A stretch of 30,139 bases of DNA from a virus. Where the stretch lies: positions 1 to 30,139 of the IMG/VR virus record IMGVR_UViG_3300020183_000331. One strand, written 5' to 3'. Positions 27,727-30,139 of this stretch are shown one piece after another (within the stretch, counting starts at the first letter, position 1; every line of letters begins with the position of its first letter). Under the pieces are notes generated by a model. It did no database searches. It was given only the letters and a program-made list of their open reading frames with translations, and was not told the origin of the DNA. The position numbers were made by a program, and so were the translations under genes.

Positions 27727-27755
27727 TTGACAACCAATGAAAAGTAGAGTACACT
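27727..27755 (+). promoter_or_regulatory. Sigma70-type promoter of the first tRNA unit
   Basis: TTGACA (27727-27732), 17-base spacer, TACACT (27750-27755). The inverted repeat CAACAC-TAT-GTGTTG (27715-27729) overlaps the -35. Predicted transcription start is about 27762, ahead of boxA and the first tRNA. Confidence 0.72.
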
Positions 27756-27776
27756 CTCTTTCGTTGGTTAAGAAGT

Positions 27777-27789
27777 TGCTCTTTAACAA
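27777..27789 (+). promoter_or_regulatory. rrn-type boxA antitermination element
   Basis: TGCTCTTTAACAA is identical to the boxA of E. coli ribosomal RNA leaders. It lies on the predicted transcript 15 bases after the start and 16 bases before the first tRNA. In cells, boxA recruits NusB/NusE to make RNA polymerase resist Rho on untranslated RNA, which suits a long tRNA transcript. No boxB or boxC was identified. Confidence 0.7.
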
Positions 27790-27804: not shown

Positions 27805-27880
27805 CTGCCCGTAGTTCAGAGGATAGAACATTTGCCTTCTAAGCAAAGGGTCGCAGGTTCGATTCCTGCCGGGCAGGCCA
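27805..27880 (+). tRNA. tRNA-Arg (TCT)
   Basis: 76 bases with encoded CCA. Acceptor CTGCCCG/CGGGCAG, anticodon stem TTTGC/GCAAA with loop CTTCTAA (anticodon TCT at 27838-27840), T arm GCAGG-TTCGATT-CCTGC. It reads AGA, a codon common in this AT-rich phage. First gene of the tRNA unit. Confidence 0.95.
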
Positions 27881-27881
27881 T

Positions 27882-27956
27882 GCACCGTTCGTCTATCGGT
27901 TAGGACGGCGCCCTTTCAAGGCGCAAAGATGGGTTCGATTCCCGTACGGTGTACCA
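27882..27956 (+). tRNA. tRNA-Glu (TTC)
   Basis: 75 bases with CCA. Acceptor GCACCGT/ACGGTGT, anticodon stem GCGCC/GGCGC with loop CTTTCAA (anticodon TTC), T loop TTCGATT. One base after tRNA-Arg, so both are cut from one transcript. Confidence 0.95.
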
Positions 27957-27984
27957 TACCAATTAATTATGAAAAGGATAATAA

Positions 27985-28164
27985 ATGGTTTACGAAAACA
28001 ATGTGGATAAGACAATTGATTCTTTGCAAACTTATTTCAAAACTGATGCAGAGATAATTAAATTCATTTTCGATAATTTAGAAAATGAGAGGTCGTTGTT
28101 TTGGATTCGTGTTGCACGATCTTATGCAAATCGTTTAGATGTTTATTTGAATTTAGAGGTATAA
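27985..28164 (+). CDS. Small protein encoded within the tRNA cluster
   Basis: 59 residues with AAAAGGATA upstream. Helical and mildly charged (TIDSLQTYFKTDAEIIKFIFDNLENE, then WIRVARSYANRLDVYLNLEV). It fits exactly between tRNA-Glu and tRNA-Ala and ends 8 bases before the latter. No family recognised. A boxA-modified polymerase would transcribe it with the tRNAs. Confidence 0.6.
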   Translation: MVYENNVDKTIDSLQTYFKTDAEIIKFIFDNLENERSLFWIRVARSYANRLDVYLNLEV

Positions 28165-28172
28165 AGTTTAAT

Positions 28173-28248
28173 GGGGAATTAGTTCAGTTGGGAGAACGCC
28201 TGTTTTGCAAGCAGGAGGTCAGCGGTTCGAACCCGCTATTCTCCACCA
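28173..28248 (+). tRNA. tRNA-Ala (TGC)
   Basis: 76 bases with CCA. Acceptor GGGGAAT/ATTCTCC (one G-U pair at position 3), anticodon stem CCTGT/GCAGG with loop TTTGCAA (anticodon TGC), T loop TTCGAAC. G3-U70 is the alanine identity element and is present. Confidence 0.95.
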
Positions 28249-28253
28249 TTTAT

Positions 28254-28331
28254 GTGAGGATGCCAGAGCGGTCAAATGGCGGAGCCTGCAAAACTCTTGT
28301 ATCGTGGGTTCGAATCCCACTCCTCACTCCA
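28254..28331 (+). tRNA. tRNA-Cys (GCA)
   Basis: 78 bases with CCA and discriminator T, as expected for Cys. Acceptor GTGAGGA/TCCTCAC, T arm GTGGG-TTCGAAT-CCCAC. The anticodon loop CTGCAAA gives GCA. The anticodon stem GGAGC/ACTCT has a C-A mismatch next to the loop and the variable region is six bases, so it is a little irregular. Confidence 0.85.
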
Positions 28332-28336
28332 GTTAT

Positions 28337-28424
28337 GGGTGGTGCCCCCTACGGCGGTCTGTAAAACCGTTGGCATAATAAGTAGGGAAGTTGCCTCGTG
28401 GAGCGTTACCATCACCACCCACCA
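28337..28424 (+). ncRNA. Tyr-type tRNA-like RNA, atypical
   Basis: 88 bases. Ends behave like a tRNA: GGGTGGT (28337-28343) pairs with ACCACCC (28414-28420), then A and CCA. An anticodon-type hairpin GCGGT-CTGTAAA-ACCGT (28354-28370) shows GTA, Tyr. But only ten bases remain for the D arm, and the T-arm candidate GTGG-AGCGTTA-CCAT (28398-28412) lacks TTCRANY. CCCTAC (28347-28352) can instead pair with GTAGGG (28382-28387) around the anticodon hairpin. It may be a highly derived class II tRNA-Tyr or a tRNA mimic. Confidence 0.5.
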
Positions 28425-28425
28425 T

Positions 28426-28500
28426 ACCACCTTAGTGAAATGAATATCACGCTAGGCTACGGACCTTGAATTGAGGGTTTGATTCCTTCAGGTGGTGCCA
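28426..28500 (+). tRNA. tRNA-Arg (ACG), degenerate tertiary-contact bases
   Basis: 75 bases with CCA. Acceptor ACCACCT/AGGTGGT, D stem GTGA/TCAC, anticodon stem CTAGG/CCTTG (one T-T mismatch) with loop CTACGGA (anticodon ACG), T arm GAGGG-TTTGATT-CCTTC. The D loop AATGAATA lacks the GG pair and the T loop has T instead of C56, so the usual D-loop/T-loop contacts are missing. Decoding function is uncertain. Confidence 0.75.
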
Positions 28501-28506
28501 GATTTT

Positions 28507-28580
28507 GGGGGTATAACTTAGTGGTAAAGTAACTGGCTTTTAACCAGTAAATCAGAGTTCGATTCTCTGTGCCCCTACCA
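28507..28580 (+). tRNA. tRNA-Lys (TTT)
   Basis: 74 bases with CCA. Acceptor GGGGGTA/TGCCCCT, anticodon stem ACTGG/CCAGT with loop CTTTTAA (anticodon TTT), T arm CAGAG-TTCGATT-CTCTG. Last tRNA of the first unit; a hairpin follows at once. Confidence 0.95.
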
Positions 28581-28599
28581 AACTTGACAAATCAAGTTT
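28580..28599 (+). terminator. Hairpin at the end of the first tRNA unit, overlapping the next promoter
   Basis: AAACTTGA, loop CAAA, TCAAGTTT: a perfect 8-bp stem starting at the last A of tRNA-Lys. The TTGACA of the next promoter lies inside it. The T-run is short and the stem AT-rich, so it may be a weak terminator or processing signal. Confidence 0.5.
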
Positions 28600-28612
28600 C
28601 TTGTAGTATAAT
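28584..28612 (+). promoter_or_regulatory. Perfect consensus sigma70 promoter of the second tRNA unit
   Basis: TTGACA (28584-28589), 17-base spacer, TATAAT (28607-28612): all twelve bases and the spacing are ideal. Predicted start is about 28619, four bases before tRNA-Asp. Confidence 0.88.
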
Positions 28613-28622
28613 ACTAAATATT

Positions 28623-28697
28623 GGTCCGTTCATATAGTGGCTATTATGCCTGCCTGTCTAGCAGGACATAGGGGTTCGATTCCCCTACGGATCGCCA
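28623..28697 (+). tRNA. tRNA-Asp (GTC)
   Basis: 75 bases with CCA and discriminator G. Acceptor GGTCCGT/ACGGATC, anticodon stem CCTGC/GCAGG with loop CTGTCTA (anticodon GTC), T loop TTCGATT. First gene behind the perfect promoter. Confidence 0.95.
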
Positions 28698-28704
28698 TTA
28701 AAAA

Positions 28705-28811
28705 ACAGAGAATGTGCGCTCTGTCTCCGCATCGATTGATCGGAGTTTAGCAAGGGTTTGATGCGGCAATGACTTCGGCATCATGTAACAGTCAGTTCCT
28801 TGTTAGCATTC
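28705..28811 (+). ncRNA. Structured spacer RNA A between tRNA-Asp and tRNA-Met
   Basis: About 107 bases with a consistent fold. GAATGT (28710-28715) pairs with GCATTC (28806-28811); stacked directly on it, TAGCAAGG (28748-28755) pairs with CCTTGTTA (28798-28805). Between lie hairpins CTCCG/CGGAG (28725-28729, 28741-28745) and TGATGC/GCATCA (28759-28764, 28778-28783). An alternative hairpin ACAGAG/CTCTGT (28705-28724) competes with the closing helix. No start codon with a ribosome site. Not a tRNA. Class unknown. Confidence 0.5.
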
Positions 28812-28817
28812 AATTTT

Positions 28818-28894
28818 CGCAGAGTATGGAAGAGGTCTATCCGCTTGGTCTCATAAGCCGAGAATCGCAGGTTCGAATCCTGCCTCTGCTACCA
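28818..28894 (+). tRNA. tRNA-Met (CAT), initiator-like
   Basis: 77 bases with CCA. Acceptor CGCAGAG/CTCTGCT leaves C1-T72 unpaired; the D stem TGGA/TCCG gives a purine-pyrimidine 11-24 pair. Both are initiator features. The anticodon stem TTGGT/GCCGA with loop CTCATAA (anticodon CAT) lacks the full three G-C pairs of a standard initiator, so a formyl-Met role is only likely in part. T arm GCAGG-TTCGAAT-CCTGC is normal. Confidence 0.88.
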
Positions 28895-28895
28895 A

Positions 28896-29120
28896 ACCCG
28901 CCGGGGTAACGCCTGGCTACTGTGACCCGCAGGAAGGAGAAATGAGTTCGTCACTCATGGGTGGTTCCCCTACAGTTAAGTAGGCATCGAAAGATGGGTT
29001 TAACCTAACCGGCGCTGGCAATGCGAGAATCCTTTTTGGTCGTGAAGTGGATGGAGGGTGTCTGTGAAGGCAATGCAGAGCCGGAGACACTATAGGTACC
29101 ACCGCAGAAAGGAAGCACCT
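28896..29120 (+). ncRNA. Structured spacer RNA B between tRNA-Met and tRNA-Asn
   Basis: About 225 bases without a credible gene. GGTGGT (28960-28965) pairs with ACCACC (29098-29103) and encloses three back-to-back hairpins: CCTAC/GTAGG (28969-28984), CATC-GAAA-GATG with a GNRA loop (28985-28996), GGTT/AACC (28997-29010), and later GTGTCT/AGACAC (29058-29063, 29085-29090). ATGAGT/ACTCAT (28942-28958) precedes them. The segment from 28957 resembles the start of the Tyr-like RNA at 28335 (ATGGGTGGT, then CCCCTAC). Class unknown. Confidence 0.45.
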
Positions 29121-29122
29121 GT

Positions 29123-29198
29123 TCCAGAGTAGCACAGCGGTAGTTGCGCCTGACTGTTAATCAGGATGTCGTAGGTTCGATCCCTACCTCTGGAGCCA
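29123..29198 (+). tRNA. tRNA-Asn (GTT)
   Basis: 76 bases with CCA. Acceptor TCCAGAG/CTCTGGA, anticodon stem CCTGA/TCAGG with loop CTGTTAA (anticodon GTT), T loop TTCGATC. Its discriminator and CCA can alternatively pair with the start of the next tRNA. Confidence 0.95.
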
Positions 29199-29364
29199 TT
29201 AGTGAAAGTCCGAAAGCGAGGTGCTTGACTAGCGACCTGACTGCCGAGGGAATACCGCTCTCTATCGCCATCGATTAAGGGATTAGTCACCCACAGATGG
29301 TTTCAGATAGTAGATACCGCTTATCTAGGTATTAAACGGATATGGCAGTACTTTCACTAATGGC
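29195..29364 (+). ncRNA. Structured spacer RNA C, closed by a 15-bp helix
   Basis: GCCATTAGTGAAAGT (29195-29209) is perfectly complementary to ACTTTCACTAATGGC (29350-29364). Inside, AGGTGCT/AGC-G-ACCT forms a hairpin (29219-29238), ACTGCC/GGCAGT (29240-29245, 29344-29349) stacks beside the closing helix, AATACC/GGTATT (29251-29256, 29328-29333) is nested, and CCATC/GATGG (29268-29300) and TAGATA/TATCTA (29311-29327) are terminal hairpins. The closing helix uses the discriminator and CCA of tRNA-Asn and the first three bases of the following tRNA-Met. Class unknown. Confidence 0.65.
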
Positions 29365-29437
29365 GATGTAGCATAGCGGCTAATGCAGTCCCTTCATACG
29401 GGAAAGATCGAAGGCTCGATTCCTTCCATCGCCACCA
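29362..29437 (+). tRNA. tRNA-Met (CAT), elongator or Ile2 type
   Basis: 76 bases with CCA. Acceptor GGCGATG/CATCGCC fully paired, D stem GCAT/ATGC (elongator-type 11-24), anticodon stem GTCCC/GGGAA with a G-A mismatch at its base, loop TTCATAC (anticodon CAT), T arm GAAGG-CTCGATT-CCTTC with C at position 54. It could be elongator Met, or Ile2 if the C34 is modified to lysidine. Confidence 0.9.
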
Positions 29438-29450
29438 TAGAGGAAAAAAT

Positions 29451-30139
29451 ATGACAATAGTTTCAATTTACAATGCACAAGGTGTACAGATAAATGAATT
29501 GAGTATTGATGATGATATTCAGTACCTCAATGGCAGAGTATCAAAAGGCAATAAATGTTATTACAAAGGCGTTGGCATTCCGTATCGTCATCATACGATG
29601 ACAGAATTTGATGATCTCAATTATGATGTAATTCAACAAACAGATATCTTTTACTTAGGATACCAGGTAGTCAAAAAATGTTTCAAAGGTAAGACTGGCA
29701 TTTTTCAAGAGAGATATCAGCCATTCTTTCCAGATTTTATTGGCACTTGTAGTGTCAAAGAAGGAACGATTGTTTTAAATTCTACCATCTTTGAGAAATC
29801 ATCGGTAGAGGTGCTTGACTATGTTCTCTACGATGAAGAGAATATTCAGTCGTACTACATGCTAGACTACAAGTGTGGTAGGCAATCTTACTTGACAAAT
29901 GACGGGAATCCTGTTAAACTGAGAGAGTTGTTAGACTACATGATTCAAAACGATTGGAATTTTCTATGGGACAAAGGTGCCATCAATGATGTTTCACCGA
30001 ATGGTACAATTAGCGATGTGGCAGATTTGTTTATCTCTGATACACTATCGCACAAGATCGGTACAGTCTATTGCATCTTGCATAGTCTGATGCGATTAAA
30101 TCCCGAGAAGTACATGGAGTTTTTGCAAATAAACGATTT
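29451..30139 (+). CDS. Unidentified protein, 3' partial
   Basis: At least 229 residues, open to the window end, with AGAGGA before ATG 29451 (13 bases after the last tRNA). Motif-like stretches are KGNKCYYKGVGIPYRHHTMTEF (about 34-54), FPDFIGTCSVKEGTIVLNSTIFEKSSV (a repeated beta-turn pattern like parallel beta-helices), DYKCGRQSYLTNDGNPVKL and HKIGTVYCILHSLMRLNP. Composition and balanced codons support a real gene. No family recognised; a beta-helical or glycan-related protein is possible. Confidence 0.6.
   Translation, partial: MTIVSIYNAQGVQINELSIDDDIQYLNGRVSKGNKCYYKGVGIPYRHHTMTEFDDLNYDVIQQTDIFYLGYQVVKKCFKGKTGIFQERYQPFFPDFIGTCSVKEGTIVLNSTIFEKSSVEVLDYVLYDEENIQSYYMLDYKCGRQSYLTNDGNPVKLRELLDYMIQNDWNFLWDKGAINDVSPNGTISDVADLFISDTLSHKIGTVYCILHSLMRLNPEKYMEFLQIND

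Follow-up and report, generated by a model that had tools for sequence, protein, structure and literature searches.

A tRNA array in an uncultured T4-like phage appears, on comparison with its relatives, to carry at least three previously undescribed folded RNAs between its tRNA genes, here called A, B and C, together with an element at 28337-28424 that reads as a tRNA-Tyr without a normal D-arm, replacing the ordinary tRNA-Tyr. The window (the whole stretch of DNA analysed) is a 30,139-base IMG/VR fragment of this phage and includes genes for DNA primase, both ribonucleotide reductase subunits and a T4-type RNase H/flap exonuclease; through the flap exonuclease, the closest named relatives are the Methylophilales phages Melnitz, at 55% identity. 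ARAGORN calls ten tRNAs in the window, at 27805-29437, and the features of the array are as follows.

27727..27755, + strand: promoter-like site TTGACA-17-TACACT before the whole array (10/12 matches; consensus match only)
27777..27789, + strand: boxA-like TGCTCTTTAACAA, 15 nt before tRNA-Arg, the first tRNA; candidate antitermination leader (exact match at 27777)
27805..28331, + strand: tRNAs Arg(TCT), Glu(TTC), Ala(TGC) and Cys(GCA) (ARAGORN)
27985-28164, + strand: 59-aa ORF in a 216-nt gap among the upstream tRNAs (ORF list)
28337..28424, + strand: tRNA-Tyr-like element, non-canonical (alignment of 17 distinct homologues; model R1)
28426..28580, + strand: tRNA-Arg(ACG) and tRNA-Lys(TTT) (ARAGORN)
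28584..28612, + strand: sigma-70 promoter TTGACA-17-TATAAT, perfect consensus (12/12 matches)
28623..28697, + strand: tRNA-Asp(GTC) (ARAGORN)
28704..28808, + strand: RNA A, in spacer A (nine distinct homologues)
28818..28894, + strand: tRNA-Met(CAT) (ARAGORN)
28896..29119, + strand: RNA B, in spacer B (alignment A8 of 51 homologues; model R2)
29123..29198, + strand: tRNA-Asn(GTT) (ARAGORN)
29197..29362, + strand: RNA C, in spacer C (alignment A13 of 15 homologues; model R3)
29362..29437, + strand: tRNA-Met(CAT), the final tRNA ahead of an ORF at 29451 (ARAGORN)

The initial annotation had proposed the order tRNA-Asp, A, tRNA-Met, B, tRNA-Asn, C, tRNA-Met behind a perfect consensus promoter, and both the ARAGORN coordinates and the promoter bear this out; weaker versions of the promoter occur at the equivalent place in two relatives (L005 and L173). 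Its spacer lengths of about 110, 225 and 160 nt compare with 120 nt for A, 228 nt for B and 163 nt for C between the tRNAs. It had also started the unit at 28584 and the structured spacers at A. Both limits move upstream: the array begins at 27805, preceded by a separate promoter-like site and a boxA, and the structured, tRNA-Tyr-like element already lies between tRNA-Cys and tRNA-Arg. Over all loci compared, a same-strand tRNA follows within 120 nt for 44 of 60 boxA-like sites, which suggests that these arrays may use rRNA-type antitermination. In rRNA operons boxA recruits NusB/NusE, with protection of the transcript from Rho as a proposed role (PMC4807359).

The case that the spacers fold is decided by covariation, given that single-sequence folding separates them poorly (z = -0.7 for B, which is not decisive, and z = -3.0 for C). 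The RNA B consensus from 51 homologues (alignment A8) spans about 208 positions, with 43 pairs in 11 helices including one pseudoknot. In this alignment 94.7% of cells are paired, compared with at most 52.0% when slid, and 28 of the 43 pairs are doubly changed; the result was matched by 0 of 500 shuffles on every measure, a count that is not a probability because the homologues share ancestry. The pseudoknot pairs the loop of helix 2 with a downstream GGGT and shows changes from AU to GC and from CG to UA. RNAalifold, with the pseudoknot omitted, gives 23 of 35 pairs doubly changed. Model R2 scores the window's own copy at 141.8 bits. Identical blocks of the variable arm (for example, GGGTATGATAGCGTCATATCT) recur in A8 copies of B that differ elsewhere, a pattern that points to recombination between B genes.

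RNA B is also widespread. Its core pattern was found in at least 119 IMG/VR stretches, including contigs of about 350 kb, and once in a collection of bacterial and archaeal genomes, on a 5.9-kb contig of a Bacteroidota MAG. Model R2 found no copy in T4, Melnitz, Aeh1, S-PM2, phage G, phiN3 or CcrBL9 in a first pass that was perhaps too coarse. Most copies were recovered by a sequence pattern blind to tRNAs, and 81 had enough flank for their surroundings to be read: the 5' start of B coincides with the end of an upstream same-strand tRNA in 42, and a tRNA follows within 9 nt downstream in 34. None of the 81 has an opposite-strand tRNA within 400 nt, and none is antisense to a nearby tRNA. In about half of the copies the 50 nt upstream contain no tRNA, and some copies are followed by ORFs.

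For RNA C (15 homologues, alignment A13, cut at the helix ends) 97.1% of cells are paired, compared with at most 49.9% when slid, 19 of 32 pairs are doubly changed and 0 of 500 shuffles reach the covariation score, shared ancestry again making this a count rather than a probability. The element is closed by a 13-bp helix (29197-29209/29350-29362) in which 12 pairs are doubly changed among the 15 homologues. In the window its arms reach over the final two bases of tRNA-Asn (the CA of CCA) and the opening G of tRNA-Met, and two more bases on each side would make it a perfect 15 bp. The closing helix would thus compete with the ends of the neighbouring tRNAs, which suggests ordered processing. 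Within the seed, arms match their own partners at a mean of 12.5 of 13 positions and mixed arms at 7.6. Inside the closing helix are a variable arm and an inner helix, ACTGCC/GGCAGT, for which six different triplet pairs occur. Beyond the seed, model R3 picked up further copies in L197, L074, L213/L243, L067 and L202, with rough E values of 1e-9 to 1e-29. Four of these (L197, L067, L202 and L074) pair at 13 of 13 closing-helix positions; the helices of the first three are new in sequence and that of L074 equals the one in L147, whereas the closing helix of L213 was not recovered by the model (5 of 13). Copies of C adjoin tRNAs at Asn|Met, Leu|Ser and Thr|Pro junctions, the L067 copy filling the Thr|Pro gap.

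RNA A is also predicted to be structured, with covarying hairpins, on evidence that is good but thinner than for B and C. An HMM of five sequences found four further distinct homologues, giving nine in all, at other tRNA junctions. The fold comprises a covarying 5' hairpin, a second hairpin and a helix GCAAGG/CCTTGT that encloses TGATGC/GCATCA. Read by hand, the 5' hairpin occurs as five perfect stems (ACAGA/TCTGT, ACGAA/TTCGT, ACAGG/CCTGT, ACGGA/TCCGT and ACGAT/ATCGT), the second hairpin is CTC/GAG or CCC/GGG, and the enclosed helix changes to TGATAC/GTATCA among the homologues. A candidate pseudoknot, TGAC/GTCA, becomes TGCC/GGCA in L013, and its support comes mainly from one variant row. 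RNAalifold, run on five misregistered rows, gave no double change and missed the 5' hairpin.

Neither protein coding nor a known RNA family accounts for the spacers. The initial annotation saw no credible protein in any of them, and we likewise reject coding, with no frame open across the homologues of A or C and frames open in at most 10 of 72 for B. It had named GOLLD, tmRNA, group I introns and RNase P as families to be searched: Rfam 15, run over the window, placed only tRNAs above threshold, with no GOLLD, ROOL, tmRNA, RNase P or group I intron, and a permissive scan gave nothing credible below threshold in the spacers. A tRNA with an intron, the other alternative it had raised, does not explain A, B or C. 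Its central proposal, that structured non-coding RNAs alternate with tRNAs within a single unit, is thus supported by covariation in homologues and by the lack of Rfam matches other than tRNAs. Searched by BLAST in 50,697 named phage records, A, B, C, the tRNA-Tyr element and further members of these families returned no match, except that the tRNA-Tyr element of L173 weakly and partially matches a Serratia phage tRNA-Thr. We found no description of A, B, C or the tRNA-Tyr element in the open-access literature.

The wider comparison covers about 300 loci, all contig fragments, gathered by protein searches and by pattern scans of viral contigs. In close relatives the order of the tRNAs is conserved and the gaps between them differ. 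C sits at the Asn|Met junction in L005, L160, L173 and L162 and is missing there in L010, L013, L017, L164 and L169, which have 4-8 nt between the two tRNAs; absence in relatives had been put forward as a sign against the spacers, and we read it as gain or loss at a fixed tRNA junction. B occupies Met|Asn in L005 and L162, and other relatives have a 70-nt hairpin RNA instead. A is found at Asp|Met in the window, at Lys|Asp in L013 and before tRNA-Glu in L174, L175 and L301. With gaps that vary while the tRNA order is conserved, and with elements that recur at several junctions, the spacers look like cassettes at tRNA junctions.

Several further spacers were seen in these loci. The 70-nt Met-Asn hairpin RNA has the form GGATAC...GTATCC and occurs in L010-L028, L160, L164, L169 and L170 (GGATGC...GCATCC in L170). 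The Cys-Ala gap of L010, L011, L013, L016, L017, L160 and L173 holds a conserved, RNA-like spacer of about 120 nt, TAGTCGCACC...GTTCGTAATGCCAAATATT. Spacers of about 85-100 nt lie beside tRNAs or B copies in L164, L169, L174, L054, L181 and L252; several start with TATTGAAGCACATT, the complete ones end in GTGTGTTTC(A/T)ATATGG, and they are apparently another closed structured family. In L170, tRNA-like genes absent from the ARAGORN calls (L170:2836-3122) lie within the 291-nt Met-Asn gap, and one of them apparently carries an insert in its anticodon region. When 502 distinct spacers of 45-330 nt were clustered, several recurrent families emerged in addition to the tRNA-Tyr element and A, B and C.

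The tRNA-Tyr element is 88 nt long in the window (88-89 nt across the family) and lies in the 94 nt that separate tRNA-Cys from tRNA-Arg; it is absent from the ARAGORN and Rfam calls. Over 17 distinct homologues 100% of its cells are paired, 10 of 22 pairs are doubly changed and 0 of 500 shuffles do as well, which for related sequences is not a probability either. Every one of the 17 distinct rows forms the seven pairs of the acceptor stem, of which four are doubly changed, and the element ends in ACCA; the anticodon stem covaries and closes a 7-nt loop that is CTGTAAA (GUA) in every row. An ordinary D-arm is not formed. The 5' strand at that position pairs instead with columns 47-52, on the far 3' side of the anticodon arm, and the resulting stem (columns 11-16/47-52, CCCTAC/GTAGGG in the window) encloses that arm; three of its pairs are doubly changed. 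The T-arm-like hairpin carries the loop AGCGTTA in the main form, which does not fit TTCRANY. A pairing of GCC (8-10) with GGC (36-38) was considered and dropped, being invariant and failing in the sister form L027. The enclosing stem is kept in the sister forms L173, L074, L027, L273 and L203 (model R1); their T-loops are of the TTCRA type in L173, L074, L027 and L203 (TTCGATT or TTCAATT in the first three) and AGCGTTA in L273.

Distribution also points to the element taking the place of the ordinary gene. Among loci with at least six tRNAs, ARAGORN calls a tRNA-Tyr in 0 of 23 with the element and in 83 of 127 without it (Fisher p 7e-10, an optimistic value given the relatedness of the loci), and L273 and L203 likewise lack an ARAGORN tRNA-Tyr. 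A codon-pattern search of 26 element-bearing records found one apparently real ordinary tRNA-Tyr, in the 191-kb record of L166, so the exclusion is strong and not absolute. With the canonical class II bacterial tRNA-Tyr the element shares the 7-bp acceptor, G1-C72, A73, CCA and the loop CUGUAAA with GUA, but it has no ordinary D-arm, nests its anticodon arm and carries AGCGTTA rather than TTCRA. Mitochondrial (type III) tRNAs without a D-stem are known (PMC7609411), and the missing D-stem is what they have in common with the element; unlike them, it is phage-encoded and 88-89 nt long, has the enclosing stem in addition and shows an unusual sequence, conserved among its homologues, on the T side. 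The review cited makes no mention of phages.

We consider it likely that A, B and C are three separate structured RNA genes, cassettes that would be co-transcribed with the tRNAs, freed by processing and active in trans. As far as the DNA can tell, they would be transcribed with the tRNAs as one transcript from the promoter at 28584, and probably also, by read-through, from the upstream promoter-like site with its boxA leader (about 27727-27789). Processing at the 3' end of the upstream tRNA would probably then create the 5' end of each spacer RNA, and RNase P cutting of the downstream tRNA its 3' end. The initial annotation had proposed this release step, and the placement of B directly after a tRNA in 42 of 81 copies and no more than 9 nt before one in 34 fits the predicted geometry, but with about half of the copies having no close upstream tRNA, tRNA processing cannot make both ends everywhere. 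The released RNAs would probably be stable and act during infection, rather than serving as switches for the next gene, and may bind a host or phage protein or a component of host defence, which is a guess.

The alternative that keeps most weight, although we regard it as unlikely, is that the spacers are cis-acting riboswitches, attenuators or antiterminators for the genes or tRNAs directly after them. Part of the B copies and some C copies do stand before ORFs with no tRNA between, and the invariant loops of B resemble those of ligand-binding RNAs. Against this, the first ORFs after B form no consistent class and were judged by eye to be MazG-like, GroES-like, RNA polymerase omega-like or one of several unknown proteins; other copies precede many different tRNAs, and a search of the window's spacers for terminator-like stems with a T run came up empty. 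The closed frames and the mixed genes after B make a coding or cis-regulatory role improbable, and the variation in downstream genes is why we prefer action in trans. The by-eye look-alikes directly after B are of GroES in L186, L196, L244 and L271, of RNA polymerase omega in L262 and of MazG in L038 and L057.

A slightly poorer prospect still is that the spacers are scaffolds for the processing or stability of the neighbouring tRNAs, for example with an RNase III site in the C helix, and functionless once cut. The closing helix of C spans exactly from tRNA edge to tRNA edge and could reach further into both, as such a role would have it, but B and C keep their internal loops and helices far more strictly than a spacer would need, relatives without C make do with a gap of 4-8 nt, and both RNAs also occur away from tRNAs. 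Selfish RNA elements inserting at tRNA junctions, in the manner of intron-derived or mobile ribozyme elements, are very improbable: presence and absence at one junction and the same element at different junctions would suit them, but no target-site duplication or shared terminal sequence was seen between sites, Rfam gave no intron or ribozyme match, and recombination between tRNA genes also explains gain and loss.

Trans-acting, tRNA-processed RNA genes would have a precedent of position in T4, one that the initial annotation had missed. Its RNAC and RNAD (species 1 and 2 RNAs; 139 and 119 nt) are small stable RNAs among tRNA genes, detected as late RNAs with function undescribed (PMC9697503), and lie 1-6 nt from tRNA-Arg and from each other. 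The phage studied here is also T4-like and its RNAs resemble these in lying within the tRNA cluster, on the same strand and a few nucleotides from tRNAs. They differ in lying between tRNAs and in forming at least three families, one of them very widespread; models R2 and R3 gave no match in the T4 tRNA region (L176), nor did R2 in the whole of T4. GOLLD and ROOL are large structured RNAs of phages and prophages that are often near tRNA islands (PMC12286853), whereas the RNAs here measure 105-225 nt rather than several hundred, fill single gaps between tRNAs and match no Rfam family.

A broader reading, which we hold tentatively and think more doubtful than not, is that large phage tRNA arrays are general carriers of a varied stock of trans-acting structured RNAs, exchanged as cassettes at the junctions and processed with their tRNAs, and that the tRNA-Tyr of new architecture, its anticodon arm nested in a rearranged D-stem and lacking a normal T-loop, works as a tRNA. 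If so, host enzymes directed against ordinary tRNAs could fail to act on its altered body. A variant that is charged and takes part in translation would add a new architecture to the tRNAs of bacterial systems, and surveys of phage tRNAs by standard tools would then be falling short. The locus indicates that an arrangement of RNAs interleaved with tRNAs is not an oddity of T4 but extends to families of complex, conserved RNAs in uncultured phages, and the deep alignments permit structure probing and functional tests.
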